DNA of 51,495 nt from Bdellovibrionales bacterium (GTDB lineage: Bacteria; Bdellovibrionota; Bdellovibrionia; Bdellovibrionales; UBA1609), in contig JADZEO010000009.1 of NCBI GenBank assembly GCA_020850475.1, forward strand, positions 1-51,495, written 5' to 3'. Made by a program: the position numbers and the translations under genes. Of the stretch, positions 15,119 to 38,608 are shown piece by piece; position 1 is the stretch's first letter, and every line of letters begins with the position of its first letter. A model generated the notes under the pieces. That model saw only the letters and a program-made list of their open reading frames with translations. It was not told the DNA's origin and ran no database searches.

Positions 15119-15122
15119 CGAC

Positions 15123-20123: not shown

Positions 20124-20132
20124 CAGCTCACC

Positions 20133-20888
20133 TCAGAGCGATAAAATTCCGCAACTTTTGCCGCCATCCACATGCAGGATCTGACCCGAAATAAACTGGG
20201 CTCGATCAGAACTCAAAAAAGCCACCGCTGCGGCAATGTCCTGGGGTTGTCCCATTTTGCCCGTGGGTTGCATCTTAATCAGGCGTTCGCGGGCCTTTTC
20301 CGGCATCGAACGCGTCATCGGGGTATCAATAAATCCAGGCGCAACACCATTGACCTGAATTTGATCGCGGGCCAATTCAAGGGCCAGGGTGCGGGTCAAA
20401 CTCACCAACCCGCCTTTACTGGCTGAATAGTTGCTCTGGCCGATATTACCCAGCCAGGAGCGCGAAATGATATTGATGATCTTGCCACTTTGCTGAGCTC
20501 GCAGCGTCGGCACCACCGCACGACAAACGAGAAAGGGACCCTTCAAATTGACCTTGAGGACTTGGTCCCAATCTTCTTCCGTCAGCTTGGTTAAAAAGTT
20601 ATCACGAATAATTCCCGCATTGTTGACTAAAATGTCGATGCGGTTCCAGTCCTTGAGCAACTCGGCAACCAACTTTTCGAGAAATGCGGCATCGGTGACG
20701 TCGCCCGAGAAAACTTTTGACGTCCAACCTTGTTCCGCAAACTCTTTGGCCGCCGTTCGCAGTTGCTTCTCGTCGCGGTCCACCAGCGCCACTCGAGCTC
20801 CCCACTGAGCAAGCTCTTGACTGATGGCGCGGCCAATTCCCTGCGCCGCGCCCGTGACAACGGCGATCTTGCCTTGCAAATTGATCAT
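20133..20888 (-). CDS. Short-chain dehydrogenase/reductase, FabG-like
   Basis: A 251-aa classical SDR. The cofactor loop is TGAAQGIGRAI with an acidic VDRDE after beta-2 (favouring NAD), NNAGI marks beta-4, and the catalytic Ser plus YSASK are in SRSWLGNIGQSNYSASKGG. The SDR lies between two thiolase genes, so I infer oxidation of 3-hydroxypimelyl-CoA or a similar 3-hydroxyacyl-CoA. A 3-oxoacyl-ACP reductase role cannot be excluded from sequence alone. Its start overlaps the preceding thiolase stop by 4 bp. Confidence 0.8.
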   Translation of the reverse strand: MINLQGKIAVVTGAAQGIGRAISQELAQWGARVALVDRDEKQLRTAAKEFAEQGWTSKVFSGDVTDAAFLEKLVAELLKDWNRIDILVNNAGIIRDNFLTKLTEEDWDQVLKVNLKGPFLVCRAVVPTLRAQQSGKIINIISRSWLGNIGQSNYSASKGGLVSLTRTLALELARDQIQVNGVAPGFIDTPMTRSMPEKARERLIKMQPTGKMGQPQDIAAAVAFLSSDRAQFISGQILHVDGGKSCGILSL

Positions 20889-22141: not shown

Positions 22142-22151
22142 CTCCTACTCC

Positions 22152-24158: not shown

Positions 24159-24165
24159 GAGCACC

Positions 24166-25122
24166 TTAGCCTCCCACTTCATAATGTTTAGATACATAGG
24201 TATCAAGAATGATCGCCCGCTCAAGATTCTTGATGAGATAATAAATTGTTTGAATCACCGGAACGTCGAGCTTTTTTTCTTCGGCGTAACGAAACATTTG
24301 TCCGCAGTGAAATTCATTTTCCGTGACATGACCCCGTTCGATATCCATTAACATCGATGGCTTGTGATCACCGCCCTTAGACAAATAGGTCACCGCCGGT
24401 TCGAAAAACTCCCGCAAGTGGTAACCACGGGTTTCACCCACCGATATCGACTCACGCAGCAGCTCTCGCACCATGCGCACCAATTCTGGCTCCTCCATGA
24501 CTTGCTTCATCGTCATCCGGGTCAAAGCGCAGACCGAACCCAGGGCCGAATTAAGGATCGCCTTCTTGAAAACCTCTTCCTTGTAATTCTCCACCACCTT
24601 GATCGGCAGTCCGGCACTCGTGAGGGCTTCGGCGATTTTTTTATCCCACGGTTGGCACTCCTTTTTTGCCGACAAAACTTGCTCGTAACAAAAGGCCACA
24701 AACACATCCGAGCGATTAACGAACTGAACGCCAAAATTAAGAATCATTCGCAAGGTGCGATTTGAGCCAAAAACTTCGGCTAGAATTTCTTCCACATCAA
24801 TCCCGTTTTGGCAGGAAACAAAGATCGTCTTAGCATCAACCCCATGGGCCTTCATTTGCCGAGCGACTTCGCGAGTGGTGCAACTCTTGACACAAAATAA
24901 AATCACTTCGGGCTTGGTCGCGACAAAGTCGCCCATGTCCGTGTACAATTCACTCAGTTGCGCCGTTGCCTCGAGCTGTCCGGTGATTCGCAAGGGGTGG
25001 CGGCGCAAAACCTCCAACTTGTGAGCGACCGCATCCAAGCAAGAAACGCGATGCCCGCCTTTTTTTAAATGGGCTGCAAACAAGGCGCCCACCGGCCCTA
25101 ATCCTACAACTCCAAAATGCAT
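24166..25122 (-). CDS. Ketopantoate reductase family (ApbA/PanE) oxidoreductase
   Basis: A 318-aa NAD(P)-dependent oxidoreductase. The N-terminal Rossmann loop is FGVVGLGPVGALFAAHLKKG, the middle KSCTTREVARQM and SCQNGIDVEEIL segments match ketopantoate reductases, and the C-terminal helical domain contains EEVFKKAILNSALGSVCALT with the conserved Lys and Asn. Family members reduce 2-ketopantoate, but many in catabolic operons act on other 2- or 3-oxo acids. Its place between an acyl-CoA ligase and a hydroxyacyl-CoA dehydrogenase (3 bp and 7 bp gaps) suggests a catabolic task rather than pantothenate synthesis; the substrate is unknown. Confidence 0.75.
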   Translation of the reverse strand: MHFGVVGLGPVGALFAAHLKKGGHRVSCLDAVAHKLEVLRRHPLRITGQLEATAQLSELYTDMGDFVATKPEVILFCVKSCTTREVARQMKAHGVDAKTIFVSCQNGIDVEEILAEVFGSNRTLRMILNFGVQFVNRSDVFVAFCYEQVLSAKKECQPWDKKIAEALTSAGLPIKVVENYKEEVFKKAILNSALGSVCALTRMTMKQVMEEPELVRMVRELLRESISVGETRGYHLREFFEPAVTYLSKGGDHKPSMLMDIERGHVTENEFHCGQMFRYAEEKKLDVPVIQTIYYLIKNLERAIILDTYVSKHYEVGG

Positions 25123-25125
25123 ATC

Positions 25126-26895
25126 CTACTCCGTTTCACCCTCAGGGTCCCCGTCGGGGTCTTTTACCTCTACTAGATAGGAATTCTCAGGAACTTGCTT
25201 ACCGACATTTTGTAAGGACAAAATATAGGGAGCATAATTCTTCTCCACCGTCCGCGGCACCAACTTAAAAGAGGGAGTGAGTTCATTTTTATCTAAGCTC
25301 AACTCTTGCTGCACCACCAAGGCCCGATCGATCCGCTCAAAGCGCACGGGATTGGAGGCATTGACGTTGGAGATGCACTGGCGCAAACAACGAGCCAATT
25401 CCCCACTGCTGCACGGGTTGCTGCAGCTTTCGCCCTCAACGCTGGCCACTTCCTTGGCCTCAACCAGCTCCATATTAGGAAACAACAGGGCGAGTGGCGC
25501 CTGCTGACCACTACCAAACACATAGGCATGCTTGATAAACCGGCACTTGGTTCGCAGACGTTCCTCAATGCCGGCGGGAAAGACCTTTTCGCCGTTGCTC
25601 AATTTGAAAATTCGGTCCTTACGTGACAAAATTTTAACTCCAGCCTCGGTGATCTCACCGACATCACCGGTGTGAAACCACCCATCCGCTTCGAGCACTC
25701 GCTCACTGGCCTCGGGATTGCGAAAGTAACCCGACATCACATTCGGTCCACGAACTAGAATTTCTCCGTCCTCAGCGGTTTTGACTTCCACCCCAGGAAT
25801 GGGAAAGCCCACCACTCCCACTTGGCGCTCAAGCGACAGTTCGGTGAGAGTACAGCAGGGAGAAGTTTCCGTGAGGCCCCAACCTTCGGCTACGGGAACA
25901 CCCTTTTGTGAGAAGACGTTGGAAACACTCAAAGGCAAGGGTGCGGCCGCGGTAAAGACAAACTTTAGATCCGGGTGAAAAAAGGTTTTTTCCGCTTGAG
26001 GTGAAGTCAGCACGCGGCCAATAATTTCCTGGTAGATTTTGGGTACACTAAAATAAACATGGGGTTTGATTTCCGCAAAATTGGTAAACAACTTGTCGAC
26101 GTCTTTGCCAAGCGAATCGTCGACGGCCAGGCAGCCACCCGTGCTCAAGGCAAAAAAGCGCTCAAACAACCCCCCAAAACTGTGGTGCCAGGGAAGATAA
26201 CACAAAAAGCGCATTCCCGACTGAGGTTTCCACAACTGCTGCAAGGCCACCTGCTGAGACATTATGTTACGATGAGAAAGCATCACCCCTTTTGGAAAAT
26301 TCGTTGTCCCCGAGGTAAACATGATCATGGCCAGATCATCGACTTTCACCTGCGCGATGGCCGCGAGGAGGTCCTTCTCGGCGGGCGGGCGGGTGCGCTC
26401 TCGAATTTGCGAAAACCCGTGCACTTGAGACTTTCCGTGACTCCACTTTTGCTCCACCGCCCCTTTTAGGACAATGATTTCGCGAGGCCAAAGAGCCGTC
26501 TGAAGTTGCTTGAGCTTTTCGCCGTTTTCAACCACCAACCCCTGGAGATCTGAAAACTCAACTAATTGGTTCAAAAAATCCTTGGCGTAGCCGATAAAAA
26601 TCGGCACGCTCACGCAGCCCACGGCCATCGTCGCCATTTCGGCAATCAAACGAGCATAATTGTTGCCGGCCACAACTCCGATTCGATCGCCCGGCTTGTA
26701 GCCTGCGTCCTTCAAATATTGGCAGAAGGAGATCAGGTCGCGCTTGAGTTCAGCCCAAGTCCAGAAGCGATACTGAGATCCGTCTCGCTCGGCAAAGGCC
26801 GCGCTTTTAGCGTAGCGTTCACCGTTGGCCAGGAGCATTTGCCCGACTGTGAACTGAACCTCACCCAACTGCTGGCGACTCTTCATGGCCTTCAT
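25126..26895 (-). CDS. AMP-forming acyl-CoA synthetase with Cys-rich insert
   Basis: A 589-aa ANL-family ligase of the long-chain (FAA1/FadD15-like) branch. The AMP/phosphate loop is MFTSGTTNFPKGVM, the A5 motif GWGLTETSP, the A7/A8 region GWFHTGDVGEI and RIFKLSNGEKVFP, and the catalytic A10 lysine is in ELTPSFK. It would activate a carboxylic acid to its CoA ester. It does not look like classical benzoate-CoA ligase, so the acid is uncertain: aromatic, alicyclic or fatty. A short insert carries four cysteines, C491, C495, C503 and C507, absent from usual relatives. The acidic tail DPDGDPEGE is also unusual. Its start overlaps the bcrD stop by one base. Confidence 0.82.
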   Translation of the reverse strand: MKAMKSRQQLGEVQFTVGQMLLANGERYAKSAAFAERDGSQYRFWTWAELKRDLISFCQYLKDAGYKPGDRIGVVAGNNYARLIAEMATMAVGCVSVPIFIGYAKDFLNQLVEFSDLQGLVVENGEKLKQLQTALWPREIIVLKGAVEQKWSHGKSQVHGFSQIRERTRPPAEKDLLAAIAQVKVDDLAMIMFTSGTTNFPKGVMLSHRNIMSQQVALQQLWKPQSGMRFLCYLPWHHSFGGLFERFFALSTGGCLAVDDSLGKDVDKLFTNFAEIKPHVYFSVPKIYQEIIGRVLTSPQAEKTFFHPDLKFVFTAAAPLPLSVSNVFSQKGVPVAEGWGLTETSPCCTLTELSLERQVGVVGFPIPGVEVKTAEDGEILVRGPNVMSGYFRNPEASERVLEADGWFHTGDVGEITEAGVKILSRKDRIFKLSNGEKVFPAGIEERLRTKCRFIKHAYVFGSGQQAPLALLFPNMELVEAKEVASVEGESCSNPCSSGELARCLRQCISNVNASNPVRFERIDRALVVQQELSLDKNELTPSFKLVPRTVEKNYAPYILSLQNVGKQVPENSYLVEVKDPDGDPEGETE

Positions 26896-27731
26896 TAATG
26901 AGTGGCCTCACTGAGACGAACATGGCGAAAGCCCCCCCAGATGGCGGAGCCAATGGCGCCAGCAAATGGGGCTAGCTCATGAGATCGCACGTTGACCGCA
27001 GGTCCCTTCTTGTCGTCTTGAATCAACTCTTGCATCGCGGTGGTGAGGCCCACGTCGCGAGACAACCCGCCAGTTACGAGCACCTCACCTTCGGCCTTAA
27101 TCATGCGCAAAAGGTTCACCAGGCGACGGGCCATCGACAGATGAATTCCCTTTAGAATATTCCCTGCGGAAATTCCCCGGCTGACCATATTAATCACATC
27201 GGTTTCAGCAAGCACCGCACAAATGCCTGACACGACTTCGGGATTATCCGCGGTTAAGGACTTGGGTCCAACATCTTCAATGCCGATACCCAGGTAGCGG
27301 GAAATGTTCTCCAGGAATTGCCCCGAGCCTGAAGCGCACTGAGAGGTCATTCGATAACCCAACACCTTGGACCGCTCATCCATAATCAAGGCCCGCGAGT
27401 GCAAAGCCCCCGCATCAACCACCGCACGTGCTTGAGGGTTCAAAAAGATCGCTCCTCTGGCATGTGAAGTCATCGTATAAAAATGGCCGCTTCGAAAATC
27501 CACTAACTCGCCTTCACCCGTGGTCGCCAAATAAGATACCTCTTTGGCCTTAATTCCATGGGTCTCAAGTAAGTGATCATAGGTCATCTGAATGACCTCT
27601 TGGGTGTCGCGCTTGCGGATTTTATTTAAAGTTGTTCCAATCAGCTTTTCTCCACCACCACTTGAGTCAAACGACATCAAGGCACATTTGATGGCACTCG
27701 AACCAACGTCAATTCCCACTGTGTAAAACAT
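26895..27731 (-). CDS. bcrD: Benzoyl-CoA reductase subunit D (ATPase/electron activator)
   Basis: A 278-aa ASKHA-fold protein. The ATP phosphate loop is GIDVGSSAIKCAL, and the two cysteines that hold the subunit-bridging [4Fe-4S] cluster are C132 (SQCASGSGQFLENI) and C171 (SGICAVLAETDVINMVSRGI). Segments TTGEGE, HFYTMTSHARGAIFLNP and AETDVINMVSRGIS agree closely with remembered Thauera BcrD (282 aa). With BcrA it forms the ATP-hydrolysing module that drives electrons from ferredoxin into the BcrB/BcrC active site. Gap to bcrA is 20 bp. Confidence 0.93.
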   Translation of the reverse strand: MFYTVGIDVGSSAIKCALMSFDSSGGGEKLIGTTLNKIRKRDTQEVIQMTYDHLLETHGIKAKEVSYLATTGEGELVDFRSGHFYTMTSHARGAIFLNPQARAVVDAGALHSRALIMDERSKVLGYRMTSQCASGSGQFLENISRYLGIGIEDVGPKSLTADNPEVVSGICAVLAETDVINMVSRGISAGNILKGIHLSMARRLVNLLRMIKAEGEVLVTGGLSRDVGLTTAMQELIQDDKKGPAVNVRSHELAPFAGAIGSAIWGGFRHVRLSEATH

Positions 27732-27751
27732 AGGTCCTGCTCCCTTAAAGC

Positions 27752-29113
27752 CTAGTGGCTTGCCACTTTCTTGGTGAGTTTGCTTAAATCCAGTTTTGCC
27801 ATTTCGCCGGAGCGATCCCGCTTAGCGAACAAGGCGGCACCGAGGGCGCCCGTGTAAATACTGTCGGGGCTGATGTTTAAAATCCGCGTCCCGTAATTCT
27901 CCTCCACGAGTTTTTTGAGCGCCGTGACCGCCGCCTGGTTTTTGGCAACTCCACCGGTAAAGGTAAATTCATCGTCAATTCCTCCAGAGCGCGCCAAGAG
28001 CGACATCGCCCGAAGAATCATCGCCCGATGGAGACCCGCCAAGATGTCCTCGCGCTTTTCCCCGAGGGAGAGGCGTTCCCGCAATTCGGTTCCGGCAAAC
28101 ACCGTGCAGGTTGAGTTGATCTTGACTTGCTTATGGGACTTCATCGCCATGGGTCCCAGCTCGTGAACGCCCATGTTCATTTCGTCAGCAATGTATCCCA
28201 AGTAACGCCCACAGCCGGCGGCGCAGCGATCGTTCATTTGAAAATTAGTGACGATCCCTTCGGCATCAACTTGAATAGCCTTGGTGTCTTGACCGCCAAT
28301 ATCCAAAACCGTCCGCGTGTTAGGAAACATATAGTGAGCGCCCAAACCGTGGCACAAAATCTCGGAGCGAATCTGCTCCTTAGGAAAGGGCAATCGTTGA
28401 CGACCGTAACCCGTGCCGATGGTGTTCAGTGGATTGAACTCCAGGGCCGACACCCGGGAAGTCACTTCCCGGACTTGCGCTTCGTACTTTTTAAATTGCG
28501 GGAGGCGAACCACTTCTTCGCAAGCCCACTGAATGTACTCATCGAAGCCGCTGGCATAACTTCTGCTCTCGACTTTTAAAATCGCGCGGTCGTAAATGGC
28601 GATGAGCTTGTCAAAAAGCTTAGAATCATTTTTGGCGAGCGCTTCAACGTGGGCCATAAAACCGCTTGAGGCCATGTCACGAAAAAAATCACTGCGCGAT
28701 TTAGCATTCGGCAAAAAGATCTCGACCGCCTCCGTGCGCATCTGCGCAAAAATCTGGTCCAATAATTTGGGAACATGGGACCACTCTTTGGCTTGCTTCA
28801 CTTCCTCAGCATCCGCCAAGCAAGTCTCAGTGAGCGCCGTTAACTGCTTCAGGTGCTGGGCCAATTTGTACTTGGCCTCGAGCCACGCCAACAACTCCTC
28901 CGACACCGCCTTGAGCGTCACATCGGCCTGCACCCAACGCTTCAGCAGCGCAAAGCGCGAATTGATCTCCGCTTCTTCACTCGCCACCTGGCAGGCAATG
29001 TCGTAATTGCTCCGCGAGTTGGTAATGCCGCGACCGAGGATCTTTTCATCGGCATCAATATAAATAGCCTTCGTGGTGGTCGATCCGAGGTCAATTCCGA
29101 TATAGCAGTCCAT
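27752..29113 (-). CDS. bcrA: Benzoyl-CoA reductase subunit A (ATPase/electron activator)
   Basis: A 453-aa ASKHA protein with the large helical insertion typical of BcrA (438 aa in Thauera) and absent from HgdC-type activases. It has GIDLGSTTTKAIYID at the start, GTGYGRQRLPFPKEQIRSEI and LDIGGQDTKAIQ in the middle, and cluster cysteines C297 (RCAAGCGRYLG) and C336 (STCTVFAGTELRERL). The conserved stretches are near identical to what I recall from Thauera. It pairs with BcrD. The extra insert region (residues about 50-210) is more divergent. Start ATG is 15 bp after the bcrB stop. Confidence 0.94.
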   Translation of the reverse strand: MDCYIGIDLGSTTTKAIYIDADEKILGRGITNSRSNYDIACQVASEEAEINSRFALLKRWVQADVTLKAVSEELLAWLEAKYKLAQHLKQLTALTETCLADAEEVKQAKEWSHVPKLLDQIFAQMRTEAVEIFLPNAKSRSDFFRDMASSGFMAHVEALAKNDSKLFDKLIAIYDRAILKVESRSYASGFDEYIQWACEEVVRLPQFKKYEAQVREVTSRVSALEFNPLNTIGTGYGRQRLPFPKEQIRSEILCHGLGAHYMFPNTRTVLDIGGQDTKAIQVDAEGIVTNFQMNDRCAAGCGRYLGYIADEMNMGVHELGPMAMKSHKQVKINSTCTVFAGTELRERLSLGEKREDILAGLHRAMILRAMSLLARSGGIDDEFTFTGGVAKNQAAVTALKKLVEENYGTRILNISPDSIYTGALGAALFAKRDRSGEMAKLDLSKLTKKVASH

Positions 29114-29128
29114 CGACAGCTCCCTTCT

Positions 29129-30433
29129 TTACAGCGTCGACTCGGGGGCCCTGCGCCCACCGCGTTTGGCTTCAACCATCTGAAAATAAGACTCGAGGCG
29201 ATTCTTAATGTTGGCCGCACTAAAGTAGCGGGGATCCACCAAGTCGGACTCAATAAAACCGCCGGCCCTTCCGGTACGGTTTTCGAGCTCACGCAACATC
29301 ATGAGTTGTCCGGCGGAAAAGGAGTTACAACTCTTAATGGAGTTAATCACAAAACCATCAGCGTCGTAGTCCTTGATGTACTTCTCCAGAATCCCCACGC
29401 GATCGGACAAATTGTGGTTGGTGTAGCAACCCAAGCAATACTCAGCCAGACTCTCGAGAGGATACTTTCCACTGTGGCGAAAACCTTCTGAGTAATAGCC
29501 GCCCACTTTGGTGTAAGTGGAGCCCACCACCACCGCTCCTTCATCGTAAAACATCTTCCAAAATTCGCGAAAGCTGGTCCAGTTGGGTGGCCCCTCGACC
29601 ACCAGGCGATACTTCTCTTGCTTCATAACTCCGTCGGGGGTGACCGGCCCCAGCCCCAACCGCACGCGCTCTTCGACTTCTCGACGCAAGGTCTGGTAGT
29701 AGATCTCGGCTTCCGGCAATCCACGAAAGGCCGAGAAGATAGGTCCAATATAATAGACGCCACCAAAATAAGCGTCGATCGGCGACGGCTTATTCTTGGC
29801 CGACTCCCACACCGCAACCAAATCGTTTTCGGCGCGGCCCGAAGACTCGAGGAAAGTCCCTAAGCGATCCAGATCCAACTTGTTACCGGAGATTTCTTCC
29901 ATTTTTGGAATCACAACTTCTTTGAGTTGTTTAACCACGTAATCGCGCATTTGCGGAGTGACTTTGCCTTCCGCTTGATAAGGGACGTGCAACATCACCA
30001 CCGGACAATTGTACTCTTCTTTGAGCAGTTCAAACCACTTCATGAAGGTAAAACACCCGGTGTAACTGAGAAGCAGCAAATCCGGCTCCGGCAGCGGGTC
30101 GCCCGTGGGGCCGACATTTCCCCGCCTCATCATGCCGATGTCGCACTTGACGTAAGTGCAAACATCTTCGGAGTGACCCGCCTTTTCAGCTTCCAAGATA
30201 TAGCCGCCACTTTTTTTGCGCATCGCCGATTGCAGAGCATTGATTTCTGGGTGCACCGGCAGCATGTCCAGGGCCCAGATCAATTCATTGAGGTTTCCCG
30301 GAACAAAGGTGTAGACCACTTTTTTATTGTTCTCTTTGGCTTTGGAGAGCGCCTTAAAGTGGTCGGCAATCATCTGCTTCTGCAGCAGCATACTCTCTTC
30401 TTTTTCAACTGACTTGTCGTTAACTTCACTCAT
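29129..30433 (-). CDS. bcrB: Benzoyl-CoA reductase subunit B
   Basis: A 434-aa subunit of the catalytic module, homologous to 2-hydroxyacyl-CoA dehydratases. Three cluster-ligand cysteine sites are visible: EDVCTYVKCDIGMM, LSYTGCFTFMKWFELL and NSIKSCNSFSAGQLMM. With BcrC it reduces the benzene ring of benzoyl-CoA by two electrons to cyclohexa-1,5-diene-1-carbonyl-CoA. I chose ATG 30433, which overlaps the bcrC stop as ATGA; the frame extends four codons further to a GTG. Length agrees with Thauera BcrB (about 438 aa). Confidence 0.93.
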   Translation of the reverse strand: MSEVNDKSVEKEESMLLQKQMIADHFKALSKAKENNKKVVYTFVPGNLNELIWALDMLPVHPEINALQSAMRKKSGGYILEAEKAGHSEDVCTYVKCDIGMMRRGNVGPTGDPLPEPDLLLLSYTGCFTFMKWFELLKEEYNCPVVMLHVPYQAEGKVTPQMRDYVVKQLKEVVIPKMEEISGNKLDLDRLGTFLESSGRAENDLVAVWESAKNKPSPIDAYFGGVYYIGPIFSAFRGLPEAEIYYQTLRREVEERVRLGLGPVTPDGVMKQEKYRLVVEGPPNWTSFREFWKMFYDEGAVVVGSTYTKVGGYYSEGFRHSGKYPLESLAEYCLGCYTNHNLSDRVGILEKYIKDYDADGFVINSIKSCNSFSAGQLMMLRELENRTGRAGGFIESDLVDPRYFSAANIKNRLESYFQMVEAKRGGRRAPESTL

Positions 30434-31599
30434 GAATGCCCCCACAATTTGATTGAGTCGGCAAAGGTTCCGGTTTGTTCCTTAAACACACTAAATTGCC
30501 CCGTATTTTCAGAATAATTAAAGCTCGTATAGGGAATCTTTTCCCGGGTGAGCGCATCGGCCAGCATCGGACGCTCCAGGAGGGCCGGGTCACAAAAGCT
30601 CGGGGCACAAAAAATCACGCCCTCGGCTTTGAGCCGGCGCACCTGGTCCACTAAGAAGGCACCCTTTTCATGCTGGTCTTCGTACTTAGAGGCATTGGCC
30701 ACCGCATGAAACAGGTAGGCTTGGGCTAAGCTCTCATAGGGATCGGCGGCGAGCTGCACGTCACCTTCGATGTAGCGAGCGCCCAAGACCCAATCGTCCT
30801 CGACAATGTAACAACCGGACTGTTCCAGTCCCTTGATCAAGGCCAAGGGGGGCTGCTCGCAAAAAGCGCCCGAGACCACCACTCGAATATTGTCCATCTT
30901 GTGGCGTTTTTCTTTGGTCACATCATGCAAATACCGGCGAACCAATTGCGTGTGTTCCTCGACGTCCATGACAATTCCGGCCCGCAAGAGCAAATAAGCT
31001 TCACTGGTCATCACCAAATGGGGTTGTTCCGCGCGAAGCTTGTACAAATCGGCGATCGCCCGGCGGTTGTCATTGTACAGCTGAATGGAGCGATTGAGGT
31101 GGTCGGCCGTCACCGGCTCACCGCCAAGATGAGCCAAGTCCTCCGCGAGAGTTCGCATTTCAAATTTGTAAAATTCCCCACCGATGGTCTTATCGAAGTT
31201 CTGCGGCAGGTCCAGATACTTAACGTACTTGTCTTTAAACAGCATCTGCCACATGCCACTCAAATTGCGAATCACATCGCAAATCGCCGGAAACAACATT
31301 CCATCCAGAACATTGAGCTTGCCCGACACCCCTAACTCAATCGTCGAGCGCGGGATATGGCAAATATAAGACTGAAAGTAAGCGTCGCCTTTGATAATTT
31401 CAAGATCAGCGCCGCCCCCCATGATCCCCACTGGGAGCATTCCGGCGGCGTGAATCACTTCGCGAGGCACATACACCGGCATAAAGCCGACGGCCTTTTT
31501 CCCCGTCCGCTTTTTCCACTCTTTAACATAACTAAAATCAAGATCGTTAAAGAGCCTTTCGCACTCATCGATGATTTGCTTAACACTCACCTGACTCAC
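30430..31599 (-). CDS. bcrC: Benzoyl-CoA reductase subunit C
   Basis: A 389-aa partner of BcrB and member of the 2-hydroxyacyl-CoA dehydratase family. Conserved parts include VYVPREVIHAAGMLPVGIMG with a following GGADLEIIKGDAYFQSYICH, MLFPAICDVIRNLSGMW and VIFCAPSFCDPALLERP; these carry the cluster cysteines. Gene order C-B-A-D is the Thauera/Rhodopseudomonas class I arrangement, and not the Azoarcus bzdNOPQ order. The start is GTG, six bases after the TetR gene stop. Confidence 0.93.
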   Translation of the reverse strand: MSQVSVKQIIDECERLFNDLDFSYVKEWKKRTGKKAVGFMPVYVPREVIHAAGMLPVGIMGGGADLEIIKGDAYFQSYICHIPRSTIELGVSGKLNVLDGMLFPAICDVIRNLSGMWQMLFKDKYVKYLDLPQNFDKTIGGEFYKFEMRTLAEDLAHLGGEPVTADHLNRSIQLYNDNRRAIADLYKLRAEQPHLVMTSEAYLLLRAGIVMDVEEHTQLVRRYLHDVTKEKRHKMDNIRVVVSGAFCEQPPLALIKGLEQSGCYIVEDDWVLGARYIEGDVQLAADPYESLAQAYLFHAVANASKYEDQHEKGAFLVDQVRRLKAEGVIFCAPSFCDPALLERPMLADALTREKIPYTSFNYSENTGQFSVFKEQTGTFADSIKLWGHS

Positions 31600-31605
31600 C
31601 TCTCC

Positions 31606-32280
31606 TTAATTGACTTCCGCTAGAAAAATCTTAGTTTTGTTCGCCTCGTAAATGCGCCGGACATCATCGGCTTCGCTGAGCTTGGATCGACCCACGAGAA
31701 GCCCGCGCAAAAAGAGCGAGTAAATATCTTCAATCAAGTCATCTGCCGGCCCATGCGATCGCGGGCTGTACCAACCAAATACCCAGTTCATCATTCCAAA
31801 CAACAACATGGTTTTTTTCTCGAGATCTTTTCGCGACAGGCGTTTACCGGTCTTTGCGCTGTAGACTTCATCCACAATGGACTGAACTTGAATCCGGTAG
31901 TCTTCCTTTAGCCCGTTAATGGTCGAGGATTTTTCCACATCGAGATTTTGGGTTCCCAACATCAGCACCCTCATCTCCCCCATGTGCGCAAGAAAGTATC
32001 GGATGTGATTATAGATGACCGCGTACAACCGTGCCTCAGGCTCCACCACTGACTCCAGCATCCCCCTGAGAGTCGTGGAAATGGCCGAAAAGCCGTGAAG
32101 GTTAATCAAAAACAGCAGCTCATCTTTACTCTTAAAATAATTGTAAAGACCCGAAAGACTGTAGCCCGTCGCCTTCGCCAGATCACGCATACTTGTCCCG
32201 TGATAGCCCTTTTTGGACATCAAGTGACTGCAGCGATTGAGAATCTCCTCTAAGCCTTCCTTCAATGGGCATCCTTCCAT
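31606..32280 (-). CDS. TetR/AcrR family transcriptional regulator
   Basis: A 224-aa regulator. The N-terminal helix-turn-helix is typical (TSMRDLAKATGYSLSGLYNY then FKSKDELL). The ligand-binding C-terminal domain is about 160 aa and contains no obvious cysteines for redox sensing. It is embedded between dch and bcrC, overlapping dch by 19 bp at the assigned ATG (a TTG at 32265 is possible). Because it lies inside the benzoyl-CoA operon I infer it controls that operon, perhaps responding to a CoA thioester as other TetR regulators of acyl-CoA pathways do. Known anaerobic benzoate regulators are of other families (BzdR, BadR). Confidence 0.88.
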   Translation of the reverse strand: MEGCPLKEGLEEILNRCSHLMSKKGYHGTSMRDLAKATGYSLSGLYNYFKSKDELLFLINLHGFSAISTTLRGMLESVVEPEARLYAVIYNHIRYFLAHMGEMRVLMLGTQNLDVEKSSTINGLKEDYRIQVQSIVDEVYSAKTGKRLSRKDLEKKTMLLFGMMNWVFGWYSPRSHGPADDLIEDIYSLFLRGLLVGRSKLSEADDVRRIYEANKTKIFLAEVN

Positions 32281-33059
32281 TTGGGCTCGCGCTTTTCCAA
32301 AAAGGCCTGAATCCCCTCTTTGGCGTCGCTGGTCGCCATCAGCTCGTTAAGATACAAGCGTTCAAGGGAGCCGATGTGCTTTTTATACAGTTCCGTAAGG
32401 ACATAACGACAAGCACGGTGAGCATAACGCAAAGACTGACTGCTCTTTTTGGCAAACTCATTTTCAAAAAACTTGTTCACCATTTCATCCAGCGCCCCGG
32501 CCCCGGCCACCTGATTGACCACCCCATACTGATGAAGCGTGTTGGCGTCCCACTGCTCACCACCTAAAATCACGCGATTGGCCAGCACCTCAGACATTTT
32601 GAGCGGCAAGAGCACGCAAGCCACCGGCGGGAACACTCCCAATTGGATTTCGGGTACGGCAAACTTGGCCTTTTCGTCGGCAAAAAGGTAAGTGCAGGCC
32701 ATCGCCACCTCAAACCCTCCGCCCAAACAGACTCCTTTGACCTTGGCCAGAGTCGGCACATGGGACTCGAGGATTTTTCCGCACAAACGATGAAAGCCCG
32801 GCAGCATATCATCCACCAATTCGGGTTTGTGTTCTTCCACACTGGCCCCAAAACTAAAGTGCTTGCCTTCGCCTTCGATGGTGATGAGTTTACACTCAGG
32901 TTTGGCCTGGAGTTCCATGAGGGCCGACTCCAACTCCAACATCATTCGCGCCGTGATGACATTTCCTGGAGGTGAGGCCAGAGTAATTTCACCCACCTGC
33001 CCCACCTGACTCATTTTGATTTTCAACAGTTCAAAAGCCATGCTGTTACTTCCAATCAT
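32262..33059 (-). CDS. dch: Cyclohexa-1,5-diene-1-carbonyl-CoA hydratase
   Basis: A 265-aa crotonase-fold enzyme. The segment FSFGASVEEH at residues 68-77 is the signature of Dch, and GVCLGGGFEVAMACTYLFA plus AVPEIQLGVFPPVA follow at the oxyanion and active-site region. It adds water to the diene made by benzoyl-CoA reductase, giving 6-hydroxycyclohex-1-ene-1-carbonyl-CoA. Its ATG overlaps the oah stop (ATGA); a second ATG at codon 7 is an alternative. Length matches the 258-aa Thauera enzyme. Confidence 0.9.
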   Translation of the reverse strand: MIGSNSMAFELLKIKMSQVGQVGEITLASPPGNVITARMMLELESALMELQAKPECKLITIEGEGKHFSFGASVEEHKPELVDDMLPGFHRLCGKILESHVPTLAKVKGVCLGGGFEVAMACTYLFADEKAKFAVPEIQLGVFPPVACVLLPLKMSEVLANRVILGGEQWDANTLHQYGVVNQVAGAGALDEMVNKFFENEFAKKSSQSLRYAHRACRYVLTELYKKHIGSLERLYLNELMATSDAKEGIQAFLEKREPKWKDAH

Positions 33060-34132
33060 TTAGGCATGATCGCCCGGTAAAGATCGTCATTCCACGGATG
33101 GGCCTGAGCCAATTGGCGGCGCAGTTCCAAAAAGTCGACTTCGCGATTGTCCTTCGGCCCCTCGTTAAACGCGCGAAAGCCGGCTTTGGCTTCGGTCATC
33201 ATGTTGAGGGCCAACCAAGAACGATTGGTCTCACAATTGCGCTGCCAGTGCTCCAGTTTCTTTTTGCGAACAGACTCGATCGTCTTGGCCAAGCAATCAG
33301 GCATCGTCATGGCCAAACGATAGGCCATTTTGTTCACTTCTTGATCGAGCAAACTCAGATCAGTCGTGCACTCGGCTAGAACTTGTTTGCCCTTTTCCCA
33401 TTCCGCCCCGGTTTTAAAATTCCCATAGCTGGGATTTCCCCAAGCATCATAAGGAGTCAAATTGACCAAGGGATTAGAGATATACTCTCCACTTTTGTGT
33501 TTCAGCACGGGAACAATCTTGTTCAGCAGTCCGATCGCCATGGCTCGGTGAGCTGACCAGTGGTCACAGAGAGTGCAAGACTCCATCGCCAAGGTAAAAC
33601 CCGTGTAGAGCGGCAAAAAGTCGGTGGATCCGCCATCGGGCGCCGAGCCATGCTTAGGACCCGCCTGGCCGAAGCGAGCAGTGTCCGAAGCAATGCTAAA
33701 ATCACAGGCCATGCCGATTTCCTGCCCGCCACCGATTCTCATCCCGTTCACCCGATTGATGACGGGTTTGTCGGTCATCAGAATGGTTGTGACCATGTCG
33801 TTAAACAATCGCATGTATTGCTTGTATTCTTGAGGATTGCCCGCATAGTACTCGGCATACTCTTTGGTGTTGCCACCGGTGCAAAAGGCTTTGTCGCCGA
33901 CGGCAGTAAAAACCACGCTCACACAGCTGCGATCGCAAGAAGCTTGGCGAAACGCCAGGATGACTTCCTTGACCGCTTCGGTCGTATAACTATTAAATTG
34001 GGCCGGGTTGTTTAAGATGATCCAGTAATTAAACAGACCTTTGACCTCTTGACCCTGGGAATCTAACAGGGGTCGCTTTTCCACGATAATTTCGCGATAT
34101 TTATAGTCAGAAATAAGATGATGATTTTTCAT
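33056..34132 (-). CDS. oah: 6-oxocyclohex-1-ene-1-carbonyl-CoA hydrolase
   Basis: A 358-aa ring-opening hydrolase of the crotonase family, larger than hydratases because of its N- and C-terminal additions. Diagnostic segments are FCTGGNTKEYAEYYAGNPQE, NRVNGMRIGGGQEIGMACDF and GQAGPKHGSAPDGGSTDFLP. It adds water to the 6-oxo compound and opens the ring to 3-hydroxypimelyl-CoA. The final EVDFLELRRQLA and HPWNDDLYRAIMP tail also matches the family. It starts 32 bp after had. Confidence 0.93.
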   Translation of the reverse strand: MKNHHLISDYKYREIIVEKRPLLDSQGQEVKGLFNYWIILNNPAQFNSYTTEAVKEVILAFRQASCDRSCVSVVFTAVGDKAFCTGGNTKEYAEYYAGNPQEYKQYMRLFNDMVTTILMTDKPVINRVNGMRIGGGQEIGMACDFSIASDTARFGQAGPKHGSAPDGGSTDFLPLYTGFTLAMESCTLCDHWSAHRAMAIGLLNKIVPVLKHKSGEYISNPLVNLTPYDAWGNPSYGNFKTGAEWEKGKQVLAECTTDLSLLDQEVNKMAYRLAMTMPDCLAKTIESVRKKKLEHWQRNCETNRSWLALNMMTEAKAGFRAFNEGPKDNREVDFLELRRQLAQAHPWNDDLYRAIMPK

Positions 34133-34164: not shown

Positions 34165-35226
34165 TCAAGGAACAAAAATAGCCCGCTTGGTGAGTTGGTG
34201 TTTCATTGCCATTTCAATCACGCGATTGATCTCACTTAAGGCAAACTCTTGGATGTTTTCGCGCAGCCGAACTCGCTTCGCCAAAACCTCGGCCAGTACG
34301 GGTGGGTAATACTGAGGGCGGCAGCCCCAGTTACCAAACATCTGGGCGTCGAAGGCCATGAGATTACTGAGCCGCACCGGTGTTTTTTCCATGGTAAAAC
34401 CGACGATACCGACAGTTCCGCCAAAGCTGAGCAGCGAAAATGCCGTTTGCTGTCCCGCCGCCGTACCGCTGGTTTCAAAAACCTTCCAGAACGAGCGCGG
34501 TAATTTGTTGGTTTTGACCAGTTCTCGAATGCCATCTTTGAGGTCTTTCTCGGATTTGCCTTTTGCCGAGAAAATAAAATCCGCACCTTGCTGTTGCGCC
34601 ACTTGCAACTTTTGCTCGTCCACGTCGATTGCAATCACTTTAGCGCCCGCATTTTTGGCATGTTGAACCATATAAATGCCGATTCCGCCCACCCCGATCA
34701 CCACCGCCAAGTCTCCCGCTTTAAGGCCACTGCGCTGCAAACTCTGATAAGGAGTCGTGATCGCATCGGCAATAACCGAGAGTTGAGCAAGTTCAAAACC
34801 ATTGAGTTGGTCGGGGACTTCACAGAGAAATCGAAAGGGAACTTTCAAGTGGGTGGCAAAGCCGCCATGAAAATCATTGCCCGGCATCAGCTGCTTTTGG
34901 CAGATATTCTCGCGCTCGTTTTTACAGAGCTCGCACTCACCGCAAGGAAGAACTGCCGGCACGATCACTTTTTTGTTCAGCCAATTGCGACCCATCGAAC
35001 CGGTGGCCACCACCGTTCCAGAGATTTCGTGTCCCAAGATCAAAGGCATGGGATGTTTAGGGGTGACCTGACCTGAGTAAAAGGTAATATCGGTGTGACA
35101 AAGTCCACAACCCGAGACCTTCACCACCACCTCAGCGTCTCCCACCTGATCGATGGTGAACTCACGCCTTTCCAGGGGGCGGTTAAACTCCGTCAGAAAA
35201 TAGCCTGTCGCGGTGATCGGCTCCAT
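34165..35226 (-). CDS. had: 6-hydroxycyclohex-1-ene-1-carbonyl-CoA dehydrogenase
   Basis: A 353-aa zinc-dependent medium-chain dehydrogenase. Catalytic zinc ligands are C43 in GLCHTD and H66-E67 in LGHEISG; the structural zinc is held by C95, C98, C101 and C109. The NAD loop is VIGVGGIGIYMVQHAKN. The segments MPGNDFHGGFATHLKVPFRF and FGNWGCRPQYYPPVL fit Had. It oxidises the Dch product to the 6-oxo compound with NAD. It is the first gene of the 23-kb minus-strand train and has an AAGGAG site six bases before ATG. Confidence 0.9.
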   Translation of the reverse strand: MEPITATGYFLTEFNRPLERREFTIDQVGDAEVVVKVSGCGLCHTDITFYSGQVTPKHPMPLILGHEISGTVVATGSMGRNWLNKKVIVPAVLPCGECELCKNERENICQKQLMPGNDFHGGFATHLKVPFRFLCEVPDQLNGFELAQLSVIADAITTPYQSLQRSGLKAGDLAVVIGVGGIGIYMVQHAKNAGAKVIAIDVDEQKLQVAQQQGADFIFSAKGKSEKDLKDGIRELVKTNKLPRSFWKVFETSGTAAGQQTAFSLLSFGGTVGIVGFTMEKTPVRLSNLMAFDAQMFGNWGCRPQYYPPVLAEVLAKRVRLRENIQEFALSEINRVIEMAMKHQLTKRAIFVP

Positions 35227-35280
35227 GACATACTCCTTAAATGCACTCGACTTTGGTCTTCAAGGGGAAGCTTAAACGCA

Positions 35281-35296
35281 GCGAACGTTCGTTCGC
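35281..35296. promoter_or_regulatory. Palindromic operator candidate near had start site
   Basis: GCGAAC at 35281-35286 and GTTCGC at 35291-35296 form a 6-bp inverted repeat with a 4-bp spacer, the size expected for a TetR-family operator. It lies just downstream of a candidate -10 box for had, so a bound repressor would block transcription. No second copy of the full palindrome was found by eye in the other promoter gaps of the window. Confidence 0.5.
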
Positions 35297-35306
35297 AATT
35301 CCTTTA

Positions 35307-35336
35307 TTTACAATTGCTGTGGGGAGCCATAGTCAA
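35307..35336 (-). promoter_or_regulatory. Candidate sigma70-type promoter for had-oah-dch-bcr operon
   Basis: On the minus strand TTGACT (35336-35331), an 18-bp spacer and TGTAAA (35312-35307) lie about 80 bp upstream of the had ATG in the 212-bp divergent gap. The -35 matches consensus at five of six positions, the -10 is weaker. Transcription would start near 35295-35300, inside or next to the palindrome. Confidence 0.5.
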
Positions 35337-35438
35337 TTTGTGATATCTTAATTTTTGTCAGTTGTTTTAAGGAAATAGGCGGGCTCGAGTTCTTCAACCG
35401 TAAGGACTGAGGGCGGCCTGAAACAATGCGGAGGTAAG

Positions 35439-36101
35439 GTGGAAAAACGCTTCTCTTGCATCCTCCTGGGGGGTGGGAAATCAACGCGAATGGGAACACC
35501 CAAGGGTTTACTCCCCTATCAAGGCCGAAGTTGGCTACAGTGGCAATTGGAGCAACTCAGTCACCGTGGTTTAGATTCCGTGGTGTTAATATTGGGGCCG
35601 GATTTTTCTCAATACCTCAAAGTCCTCCCCGAACTTGGGGCGGCTCAAAATCAATGGTGCAATTGGCGCGGTGACTTGACCCTCCGATTAGTCATTAATC
35701 CCGAGGTCGAACGCGGTCCATTTTCGTCTCTTCAATGTGGACTCAAATCCTGGGCAACCACACCGCCCGCTTGTTTTGTCCTCCCCCTTGATACCCCTTG
35801 TGGTGACGCATCGACGTGGCAGTTGTTAAAGGACTACATGAATAAATCAGACTATGATGTCACAATTCCAACTCTTCACGACAAGGGTGGTCACCCTGTT
35901 TTGCTTTCTGCACATTTTTTGCGCCACCTCTCTGGCGTGGATCCCTTGGCACCTGAGGCCCGCTTGGATCTTCAGATCCGCCAGCTTGCCCCCGAGAAGA
36001 TCGCTCGCCTGCCGGTAACGGATAAAAAGGTGCTTATCAATCTAAACACGCCGGAACAATGGCAGGCATTTGCCGGATCGGGTGAATTGCGGGAAAGTTG
36101 A
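35439..36101 (+). CDS. MobA/MocA-like molybdenum cofactor nucleotidyltransferase
   Basis: A 220-aa NTP-transferase. The nucleotide loop LLGGGKSTRMGTPKGLLPY is at residues 9-27, GPFSSLQCGL and VLPLDTPC follow at the middle, and GGHPVLLSAHFLRHL in the C-terminal part is more like MocA, the CTP:molybdopterin cytidylyltransferase, than MobA. Hydroxylases such as 4-hydroxybenzoyl-CoA reductase use the cytosine dinucleotide cofactor, so a MocA role serving HcrABC is a good inference. The start is GTG with GGAGG four bases upstream. It leads the plus-strand operon divergent from had. Confidence 0.72.
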   Translation: MEKRFSCILLGGGKSTRMGTPKGLLPYQGRSWLQWQLEQLSHRGLDSVVLILGPDFSQYLKVLPELGAAQNQWCNWRGDLTLRLVINPEVERGPFSSLQCGLKSWATTPPACFVLPLDTPCGDASTWQLLKDYMNKSDYDVTIPTLHDKGGHPVLLSAHFLRHLSGVDPLAPEARLDLQIRQLAPEKIARLPVTDKKVLINLNTPEQWQAFAGSGELRES

Positions 36102-36148
36102 AACACTGATACGTAAGAGTAGTGAAGCGATTTGAAGTGAGGTGGCTC

Positions 36149-37366
36149 GTGGCAAAAATCGAAGCAAACAAACAGCTCAAGCAATACTTGAAGGAATACT
36201 TCCAAGGTTTCTTTCCGCCCGCAGGCCCTCGCCCCAAAGTTGCTTGGTGCACGAGCGTGGGACCAGCTGAGCTTCTCATCTCTTTGGGCTTTCAAGTGTA
36301 CTATCCGGAAAATCATGGCGCCCTGCTAGGGGCCACGCGGGCGGCAGAAAAGTACATCCCGGTGGCCAACGCGGGCGGCTACTCCCCGGAAATTTGCTCG
36401 TATTTAACTTCTGATATCGGGGCCTTTCAACAACACGAAACGCCACTCAAAGAAGCCTATGGAATCCCCTCGGTGCCGCCGCCGGATGTGTTGATTTACA
36501 ACACCAACCAATGCCGTGAGGTTCAGGACTGGTTTGCCTACTATGCGCGAAGCTTTAAGGTCCCTTCGTTGGGAGTCTTTTCTCCCTGGAAGATCGACCA
36601 ACTCAATCGCGAACAGATTGGCTATGTCAGCCACCAAATTGAAGCGATGATTCCCGAGCTCGAGCGCATCAGCGGTCGCACCTTTGACCTCGATCGGCTT
36701 AAAGAGGTCATCGCCCTCTCGCGACGAACCAGTGATCTGTGGCTTGAGTTTTTGCAGACCGCGAGGCAGCGGCCCTCGCCGATTACCTTTTTTGACGGCT
36801 GTATTCAAATGGCCCCCGCGGTCGTTTTACGGGGCACGGTAGCCGCGGTGGATTACTATGAACTGCTCAATCGCGAAATGAAGGGGCACCTCGCGCGCCG
36901 TGAAGGTGCGGTTGAAAAGGAAGTGGTGCGCCTCTACTGGGAAGGAATGCCGGTGTGGGGTAAACTGCGCTTCTTCTCTGACCTATTGGCCAGATTCGGT
37001 GCCAACGCGGTGGCCTCGACTTATTGTGACTCGTGGATCTTTACCGATTTTGATCCCGCTGATCCCTTTGTCAGTATGGCCGAAGCCTACACCAAAATCT
37101 TTATCAATCGTTCTGAACGGGTGAAGGAAACCATCTTGGCAGAAAAAGCGGCAGAGTATGAAATCGACGGAATCATTTACCACGACGCCAAGACCTGCCC
37201 TTACAATTCCAATTCTCGGTTTGGCCTTCCTCAGCGCGTGACGGCTAAAACTGGAATTCCCCATTTGATTTTTGACGGCGATGTGAATGATCTGCGTTGC
37301 TTTTCAGAGGAGCAAACGACGACCTCTCTCGAGTCGTTTGTTGACCAGATTAAAGAGAATCACTGA
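36149..37366 (+). CDS. 2-hydroxyacyl-CoA dehydratase family, double-cubane-like reductase
   Basis: A 405-aa protein of the HgdB/BcrB/BcrC family. Cysteines C83 (EICSYLTSDIGAF), C122 (NQCREVQDWF) and C350 (AKTCPYNSNS) align with the three cluster ligands of BcrB. Extra cysteines are C34 (VAWCTSVGPAELL), C218, C293 (STYCDSW) and C384. C34 and C293 fall where I recall cysteines in E. coli YjiM, a double-cubane-cluster-type protein, but not in BcrB or BcrC. So this may be a single-gene catalytic subunit with an 8-iron cluster. No partner subunit gene follows, only one activase. GTG 36149 has GAGG upstream; the frame extends to GTG 36122. Substrate unknown. Confidence 0.75.
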   Translation: MAKIEANKQLKQYLKEYFQGFFPPAGPRPKVAWCTSVGPAELLISLGFQVYYPENHGALLGATRAAEKYIPVANAGGYSPEICSYLTSDIGAFQQHETPLKEAYGIPSVPPPDVLIYNTNQCREVQDWFAYYARSFKVPSLGVFSPWKIDQLNREQIGYVSHQIEAMIPELERISGRTFDLDRLKEVIALSRRTSDLWLEFLQTARQRPSPITFFDGCIQMAPAVVLRGTVAAVDYYELLNREMKGHLARREGAVEKEVVRLYWEGMPVWGKLRFFSDLLARFGANAVASTYCDSWIFTDFDPADPFVSMAEAYTKIFINRSERVKETILAEKAAEYEIDGIIYHDAKTCPYNSNSRFGLPQRVTAKTGIPHLIFDGDVNDLRCFSEEQTTTSLESFVDQIKENH

Positions 37367-37376
37367 GGTTTGGGAC

Positions 37377-38162
37377 ATGAGCAAATATTTTGCGGGTTTG
37401 GATTTGGGTTCTTCCTTCGTCAAGGGGGTCCTGCTTGATGAAGATCGTCAGGTTCTGGCGCAGGTGGTGGAACGAACCGGTATTAGCTTTGCTGAAACTG
37501 GTAAGAAGATCCTCGAACAGCTAAAGACCCAAGCGGGCCTTCCCCAAACAGCGCTGCCGGTGGTAAGCACCGGCATCGGCCGCAATAACGTGGCGGCAAT
37601 CGAATTTTCCAAGCCCGAGATCAATTGCTTTGGTAAGGGCAGCTTTTTTCTCTTCGGCGGCCCCTGCACGGTGGTGGATATCGGCGGGCAAGACAACAAA
37701 ATCATCAAGCTCGATTCCGCGGGTAAGCAAATCTTCTTTCGGATGAATCGCAAGTGCGCCGCCGGTACGGTCAGCTTTCTGGAAGAAATCGCCTTTAAGC
37801 TCAACTTGAAAACTTCGCAAATGAACCAAATGGCCTCTCAAGCCACGGCCGCAGTCCCCGTGGGCAGCTACTGCACTGTCTTTGCGGCCACCGAAATCAT
37901 TCATCATCTCCGTCGTGGGGAAAACACCGAGGGCCTCATGCGAGGGGTCTATGAATCGGTCACCAAGCGGATTATGGAGATGGCAACACTCGATGAACAA
38001 GTGATCCTAACCGGCGGAGCGATTGCCACCAACCCCGTCTTAGTGGATCTTTTTAAAGAAAAAATCCCCAATCCCGTTCAGGTGCCGGCCGCACCCCAGT
38101 TTGTTGGAGCCTTGGGTGCTGCCCTTTATGCCATTGAGGCCAGCGAGGAGAGCGCCCCATGA
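37377..38162 (+). CDS. Acyl-CoA dehydratase activase (ASKHA, HgdC-like)
   Basis: A 261-aa homodimer-type activase. ATP loop GLDLGSSFVKGVLL at residues 7-20, VVDIGGQDNKII at 99-110, and cluster cysteines C127 (KCAAGTVSFLEE) and C166 (SYCTVFAATEI), the same numbers as in the Acidaminococcus HgdC protein as I recall it. It would couple ATP hydrolysis to single-electron transfer into the adjacent dehydratase-like protein. It lacks the BcrA insertion and differs from BcrD, so it is a separate system. ATG 37377 lies 10 bp after the previous stop with a GAGG site; its stop overlaps the next start as ATGA. Confidence 0.88.
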   Translation: MSKYFAGLDLGSSFVKGVLLDEDRQVLAQVVERTGISFAETGKKILEQLKTQAGLPQTALPVVSTGIGRNNVAAIEFSKPEINCFGKGSFFLFGGPCTVVDIGGQDNKIIKLDSAGKQIFFRMNRKCAAGTVSFLEEIAFKLNLKTSQMNQMASQATAAVPVGSYCTVFAATEIIHHLRRGENTEGLMRGVYESVTKRIMEMATLDEQVILTGGAIATNPVLVDLFKEKIPNPVQVPAAPQFVGALGAALYAIEASEESAP

Positions 38163-38608
38163 AGATCTACGAACGCAATCTTAATTCTTCGGTTCGCAAA
38201 ATCGACGAGACCCACATTCTGGTCGAGACCTCAATGCTGGACCTTAATCACAGCATGCGAGTTGAGTTAAAGATCAACACCCAAACGAATGTGATCGAGG
38301 AAGCCGTGTCGGAGACCACCAAGGTGCCGCTAAAAGCCTGTGCGGTACCTCAGAACCTGATCAAACAGGTGGTGGGTTTAAAAATTGAACGCGGGATTAA
38401 CCGCAAACTCATTCAAATTCTCGGCGGCGGCGAAGGCTGTACACACCTCTATGAACTGACTCTCACCTCGGTGCGACTCACCTTCAACGTGTTGATGGGG
38501 CTTCGTTACGATTGGGAACAGTGGGTGTCGCGCTCACTGTCGGATGAAGAATTCACCCAACAGGCGACGCCTCATTTAAAAGGCAGCTGCTACCCGTTTA
38601 AAAAATAA
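38159..38608 (+). CDS. DUF2889 domain protein
   Basis: A 149-aa cytoplasmic protein. The pattern of a short Leu/Asp-rich strand region, then VVGLKIERGINRKLIQILGG leading into GEGCTHLYEL, is the DUF2889 signature (LVG, GG, GCTHL). The conserved Cys-Thr-His could bind a metal or ligand; the function is unknown. It is coupled by an ATGA overlap to the activase gene and ends the plus-strand operon, overlapping tail-to-tail by 11 bp with the next minus-strand gene. Confidence 0.75.
   Translation: MKIYERNLNSSVRKIDETHILVETSMLDLNHSMRVELKINTQTNVIEEAVSETTKVPLKACAVPQNLIKQVVGLKIERGINRKLIQILGGGEGCTHLYELTLTSVRLTFNVLMGLRYDWEQWVSRSLSDEEFTQQATPHLKGSCYPFKK

Follow-up and report, generated by a model that had tools for sequence, protein, structure and literature searches.

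A conserved single-subunit relative of the 2-hydroxyacyl-CoA dehydratases encoded beside a benzoyl-CoA operon in a Bdellovibrionales bacterium

The window investigated here is a stretch of 51,495 nucleotides from a Bdellovibrionales bacterium (contig JADZEO010000009.1 of assembly GCA_020850475.1), which carries at positions 35439-38608 a block of four genes on the + strand: a mocA-like gene, hgdD (encoding the HGD-D protein), an activase gene and a DUF2889 gene (Table 1). The HGD-D protein is a real, conserved and uncharacterised member of a known enzyme superfamily, a variant with a single subunit, and, judged from sequence, is an orphan alpha-subunit. The reading that we favour, at a probability of about 0.45, is that this subunit dehydrates (R)-aryl-lactyl-CoA and feeds the benzoyl-CoA pathway, and that the mocA-like and DUF2889 genes serve a molybdenum enzyme. 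A sequence-only reading of the same DNA had described a module of a dehydratase-family subunit, an HgdC-like activase and a DUF2889 protein, and this was borne out by matches to PF06050, BcrAD_BadFG and PF11136. The length of 405 amino acids, the ATGA overlap that couples the activase and DUF2889 genes (38159-38162) and the numbering of C34, C83, C122, C293 and C350 were also correct. Position 35439, given as the start of the module, proved to be the start of a MobA/MocA-like nucleoside triphosphate (NTP) transferase gene that had been overlooked.

The family was collected by scanning 84,980 genomes, which yielded 157 confirmed stretches, of which 80 were kept. These relatives were 51-71% identical to the HGD-D protein over the full length, a conservation far beyond chance, and came from Geobacteraceae, Desulfobacterales, Myxococcales, Oligoflexia, Ignavibacteria and other taxa. 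The family, with at least 80 members, is widespread in anaerobic aromatic degraders, though no assigned function for it was found. C83, C122, C293 and C350 were invariant in all 82 aligned members and C34 was present in 81; the sole member without it (L051, 10001-11209) has a valine at this position and retains C293. C83, C122 and C350 align with the cluster cysteines of HadB, so that the three-cysteine [4Fe-4S] site is present. Glu54 and Ser36 are the counterparts of HadB Glu55/Ser37 and BzdO Glu65/Ser44, Glu54 being kept across the family alignment, and the RG and EGxPxW motifs of CoA-binding alpha-subunits are also kept in the HGD-D protein. The PEN motif and Val125 are as in HadB, unlike His131 of BzdO and the residues of BcrB. 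In the activases adjoining the HGD-D gene, C127 and C166 were invariant (71 of 71).

BzdN ligates an [8Fe-9S] cluster through C36, C73, C100, C263, C293 and C327 (PMC11971306). The HGD-D protein has cysteines in the same columns as C73, C100, C263 and C327, its own C293 occupying that of BzdN C263, and C34 lies one column off BzdN C36; the earlier placing of C34 and C293 at double-cubane positions was right for the second and one column out for the first. The equivalent of BzdN C293, the sixth ligand, was absent in all aligned family members. The HGD-D protein has five of the six ligand positions found in BzdN and in the double-cubane cluster protein (DCCP).

The HGD-D family belongs with the catalytic alpha-subunits (HadB, BcrB and BzdO). 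In the tree its members fell into a single clade (100/100) on the side of the alpha-subunits, split from the beta-subunits and DCCP with support of 100/100, and an approximately unbiased (AU) test rejected its grouping with DCCP (p 1.3e-41). The nearest alpha-subunit differed between trees, being HadB (82/79) in the careful tree and BcrB/MbdO (88) in another. NCBIfam models scored 208 bits for HadB, 156 for BcrB (cut-off 486.6) and 89 for BzdO (cut-off 449). The AlphaFold2 (AF2) model of the protein, with a predicted local distance difference test (pLDDT) score of 91.8, matched HadB with Z 49.4 and a root-mean-square deviation (rmsd) of 1.9, followed by BzdO (44.8), MbdO (41.4), DCCP (33.0) and HadC (31.4). 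The nearest outgroup seen was formed by Desulfobacterales alpha/beta HGD-D pairs of 33-36% identity (L140 6001-8324 and L141 5495-7817), the first beside thiolase and HBDH genes, the second beside an SDR gene with IorAB-like genes on the opposite strand.

The single catalytic subunit with its own activase gene and the five conserved ligand cysteines are shared with DCCP/YjiM (6eno, 7yyl), and would suit a variant DCCP-like protein that delivers electrons of very low potential, or serves to reduce small molecules, with no CoA ester involved. Such a role is nevertheless very unlikely, the protein lying on the other side of the tree, lacking the sixth cysteine and retaining the alpha-subunit glutamate and the CoA-type RG and EGxPxW motifs among beta-oxidation neighbours. 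The DCCP equivalog NF040772 gave only 46.5 bits against a cut-off of 350; on this score, the missing cysteine and the tree, DCCP membership was rejected, and 'double-cubane-like', as the family had been called earlier, does not stand.

The marks of a class I benzoyl-CoA reductase were likewise lacking, the HGD-D module having two genes only rather than the four subunits of BcrABCD or BzdNOPQ, and the BcrB and BzdO scores lying under their cut-offs. BcrBC, BzdNO (8s02) and MbdON (9g87) resemble the HGD-D protein in alpha-subunit fold, CoA-site motifs and dependence on an activase, and its extra cysteines resemble the double-cubane ligands of BzdN; they differ in having two catalytic and two activase genes, whereas in the HGD-D protein the catalytic residues and the extra ligands are on one chain. 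HadBC/HadI ((R)-2-hydroxyisocaproyl-CoA dehydratase, PDB 3o3m) and FldBC/FldI (phenyllactyl-CoA dehydratase) share with it the HadB fold, the three-cysteine site, the glutamate and serine equivalents and an HgdC-type activase, but the HGD-D protein, at 28-29% identity, lacks a second subunit, carries C34 and C293 and is found in benzoyl-CoA islands.

The whole genome of the window contains only three HGD-D genes, those for BcrC, BcrB and the HGD-D protein. When HGD-D genes were surveyed in 24 genomes, three of these (G155, G160 and G168), which are metagenome-assembled genomes and possibly incomplete, had no HGD-D gene besides the hgdD homologue, and the complete genome of Desulfonema magnum encodes the family member and one HGD-D protein that groups with DCCP. 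No BcrC/HadC-type partner gene was found in any of these four. Because the finished D. magnum genome is without one, a second subunit appears not to be needed, unless a partner is drawn from another family, and the HGD-D protein probably acts as a homodimer. These data support the earlier idea of an activase-driven single-subunit system tied to aromatic metabolism. Placement in a dehydratase clade with a partner encoded elsewhere had been named as grounds against the double-cubane reading; the alpha-subunit placement agrees with the first part of this, but a partner elsewhere was rejected, only BcrB and BcrC being found in the genome of the window and none in several other genomes. It is very unlikely that the HGD-D protein substitutes for BcrB as the partner of BcrC or of some other beta-subunit: the close-relative genomes (group A, below) do encode exactly BcrB, BcrC and the HGD-D protein, but the four genomes named above have the protein without a BcrC/HadC-type gene, and an activase gene stands beside hgdD in most loci. 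Geobacteraceae-type genomes with BcrB/BcrC (class I benzoyl-CoA reductase) plus a family enzyme were seen at L095, L097 and L098.

Group A comprised seven close-relative loci with flanks: the window, L007, L008 (from the same genome as L003), L009, L010, L011 and L014. In all seven hgdD-activase was divergent from had, and in group B loci (e.g. L017, L020, L026 and L043) had-dch lay directly upstream of activase-hgdD. The divergent arrangement with had across a gap shared with the benzoyl-CoA genes, noticed before, was confirmed, but the first gene across this gap is mocA-like and not the reductase gene. A palindrome core, GAACGTTCGTTC, was present in the hgdD/had gap of six of the seven group A loci. 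The retrieved loci, 1.33 Mb in all, contained six occurrences of GAACGNNCGTTC, each upstream of had and none elsewhere; palindrome sites were at L007 8874, L008 8171, L009 9868, L010 1189, L011 9217 and L154 5468. The occurrences upstream of had include one in G035, which has bcr and lacks hgdD. No further exact copy of GAACGTTCGTTC was found in the genome of the window, and a looser pattern was no commoner than the control. Because this palindrome is conserved between hgdD and had, the hgdD operon probably shares its regulation with the benzoyl-CoA operon, and the TetR protein of the latter presumably binds it. Counting the site in the window (35281-35296) with those listed, the core GAACG(T/A)TCGTTC, a probable TetR operator, precedes had in the benzoyl-CoA operons of seven loci from distant bacteria.

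The genes in the same directon as hgdD were counted at 81 loci: the activase (66), an ADP-forming acyl-CoA synthetase (51), a ketopantoate-reductase-like (KPR-type) dehydrogenase (40), PaaK (22), IorA (21), ACT (18), thiolase (13) and HBDH/FadJ (12), with had or dch at six or seven. The order at L014 was hgdD-activase-KPR-aminotransferase and at L011 hgdD-activase-aminotransferase. A KPR-like dehydrogenase gene was also seen directly beside activase-hgdD in distant phyla (most group B loci). KPR-related enzymes include D-2-hydroxyacid dehydrogenases (PMC4230899), and a lone HGD-D gene of the sulfate-reducing strain BzS1, 30% identical to FldB, has been named as a phenyllactyl-CoA dehydratase candidate (PMC13416013). 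The neighbours (aminotransferase, KPR-type dehydrogenase, acyl-CoA synthetase, beta-oxidation genes and IorAB) favour an aryl-lactyl-CoA dehydratase, and the HGD-D family is a candidate for the step discussed for that sulfate reducer. An HGD-D catalytic gene is reported absent from Geobacter metallireducens (PMC1924859), and the enzyme is therefore not essential to the benzoyl-CoA pathway.

In the proposed route, phenylalanine or tyrosine would be converted to an arylpyruvate by the aminotransferase and then to an (R)-aryl-lactate by the KPR-type dehydrogenase acting as a D-2-hydroxyacid dehydrogenase, and activation with CoA would yield aryl-lactyl-CoA. The HGD-D enzyme, acting without a second subunit and most simply as a homodimer, would perform a ketyl-radical dehydration to a cinnamoyl-type CoA, the HgdC-type activase injecting one electron paid for by ATP; C34 and C293 would probably contribute a further metal or cluster element, as a partly retained double-cubane site. 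Beta-oxidation would then give (4-hydroxy)benzoyl-CoA, to be used by Hcr and Bcr across the gap, while the mocA-like and DUF2889 proteins would serve the molybdenum enzyme. Of these elements, the family, the number of subunits, the cysteines, the synteny and the common palindrome are seen in the sequence, and the substrate, the dimer state, the cluster, control by TetR and the part played by DUF2889 are inferred.

Several observations weigh against this route. At the locus of the window itself an aminotransferase gene is not adjacent, KPR is retained in G035, which lacks the HGD-D enzyme, and IorAB, PaaK and KPR might work in a different branch of that island. The placing closer to HadB than to BcrB is weak (82/79), the other tree putting the family on the BcrB side, and the places of C34 and C293 are occupied in HadB by serine and proline, with no counterpart. 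All characterised 2-hydroxyacyl-CoA dehydratases known to us are heterodimers. The hcrA-like protein reached 804 bits against a cut-off of 994, so that 4-hydroxybenzoyl-CoA reductase is its best family only.

The main rival is ring reduction in place of alpha-dehydration, carried out with the same cofactor machinery: the protein would be an aryl-CoA reductase driven by ATP, or else a reductive dehydroxylase or dehalogenase, and would broaden the substrates of the benzoyl-CoA pathway. BcrB, MbdO and BzdO share the family's side of the tree, the palindrome is common to the hgdD and bcr operons, and the accessory occurrence of the enzyme, absent from G035 with its bcr and hcr genes, would also be accommodated. 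We consider it unlikely, as the PEN motif and Val125 are those of HadB and not the BzdO or BcrB residues, and the KPR, ACD, aminotransferase and beta-oxidation neighbours are ill-suited to ring reduction. A bolder form of the aryl-lactyl-CoA reading, advanced tentatively and somewhat doubtful, is that the protein may represent a third class of low-potential enzymes driven by ATP. It would be a homodimer in which each chain unites a CoA-ester alpha site with a double-cubane-type cluster reduced to five cysteines, would stand as a surviving intermediate between ancestors resembling DCCP and the heterodimeric benzoyl-CoA reductases and hydroxyacyl-CoA dehydratases, and would channel carbon from aromatic amino acids into the benzoyl-CoA pathway. 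For these reductases and dehydratases, descent from a homodimeric ancestor with a double-cubane cluster, one sub-cluster having been lost, has been proposed (PMC11971306), and a single-subunit member with five of the six ligands would offer a direct test of that proposal.

The DUF2889 gene was missing from 28 of the 43 genomes with the HGD-D enzyme, and co-occurrence ruled it out as a fixed partner, as the sequence-only reading had had it. G000, G051 and G035 were the only ones of 148 with any HGD-D match to the HGD-D protein, and among 59 relatives DUF2889 occurred only in these same three. G035 has bcr and an hcrA-like gene, its HGD-D proteins are BcrB and BcrC only, and its DUF2889 gene (56% identical; L153 10008-10460) has xdhC on one side and a divergent mocA-like gene on the other. 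As it adjoins DUF2889 and xdhC in this relative without the enzyme, the mocA-like gene is placed outside the HGD-D machine and probably serves molybdenum-cofactor maturation; its product scored 88.7 bits with MocA_YgfJ, under the equivalog cut-off. DUF2889 more likely belongs to the Mo-hydroxylase set than to the HGD-D machine, the hcr Mo-hydroxylase being the likely client of both. A second DUF2889 copy, 85% identical, is present at L149 470-1078 (G051:C48), in the same genome as L003.

H31, C61, C94 and H96 of DUF2889 were invariant in eight diverse sequences, an IscU-like pattern that was recognised prior to the fold search. VIA-align of its AF2 model (pLDDT 84) gave ISCU2/IscU in the first ten rows (Z 8.0-8.8, rmsd 2.3-3.0), values near 8 being borderline; Foldseek gave no match at E <= 0.001, and no sequence or profile link to solved structures was found. 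The modelled strand-helix layout and the placing of the four residues, at what we take to be places topologically equivalent to the IscU metal-site residues, resemble IscU/SufU scaffolds, whereas identity is about 9-14%, no sequence-profile match exists and DUF2889 is tied genomically to molybdenum-cofactor genes. The predicted fold and the ATGA coupling to the activase would fit a dedicated iron-sulfur scaffold for the unusual cluster of the HGD-D enzyme; this is quite unlikely given the absence from most enzyme-bearing genomes, the position beside mocA and xdhC where the enzyme is lacking, and the remaining neighbours, which are thioesterase-like or acyl-CoA dehydrogenase genes. We suggest that DUF2889 may instead carry sulfur or Fe-S to the molybdenum enzyme. 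Literature mentioning DUF2889 gave no function for it, and sulfur or Fe-S transfer near Mo-hydroxylases would be its first testable role.

Table 1. Features of the hgdD block and of the divergent benzoyl-CoA operon in the window
Feature	Position	Strand	Basis or remark
MobA/MocA-like NTP transferase	35439-36101	+	PF12804 99 bits; first gene of divergent operon
HGD-D protein, 405 aa, alternative GTG start at 36122	36149-37366	+	PF06050 201 bits
HgdC-type acyl-CoA dehydratase activase (BcrAD_BadFG), 261 aa	37377-38162	+	TIGR00241 190.5 bits, cut-off 125.4
DUF2889 protein	38159-38608	+	PF11136 59.7 bits, cut-off 25
Palindrome GCGAACGTTCGTTCGC	35281-35296	no strand	Between had and mocA-hgdD operon; probable operator site for the TetR protein encoded in the operon
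had-type zinc alcohol dehydrogenase, first gene of divergent benzoyl-CoA operon	34165-35226	-	ADH_N/ADH_zinc_N; synteny
oah, 6-oxocyclohex-1-ene-1-carbonyl-CoA hydratase	33056-34132	-	TIGR03200 524.7 bits, cut-off 464.5
TetR-family regulator	31606-32280	-	TetR_N and TetR_C_24; probable ligand-responsive repressor at palindrome
bcrCBAD, class I benzoyl-CoA reductase	26895-31599	-	BcrC 550, BcrB 713, BcrA 586 bits, each over cut-off
KPR-like dehydrogenase and AMP-forming acyl-CoA ligase	24166-26895	-	TIGR00745 149.5 bits, over cut-off; acyl-CoA synthetase models
KPR-like dehydrogenase	24166-25122	-	Part of benzoyl-CoA operon
Beta-oxidation set: HBDH/enoyl-CoA hydratase fusion, two thiolases, SDR	18990-24224	-	
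4-Hydroxybenzoyl-CoA reductase-like Mo-hydroxylase (hcrC, hcrA, hcrB) and xdhC	14345-18974	-	TIGR03194 804 bits; XdhC domains

The had and mocA-like genes are separated by a gap of 212 bp (35227-35438). On the - strand the order of genes is had-oah-dch-tetR-bcrC-bcrB-bcrA-bcrD-ligase-KPR-HBDH/ECH-thiolase-SDR-thiolase-hcrC-hcrA-hcrB-xdhC, in which BcrD was assigned from its position and its similarity to BcrD of other loci.

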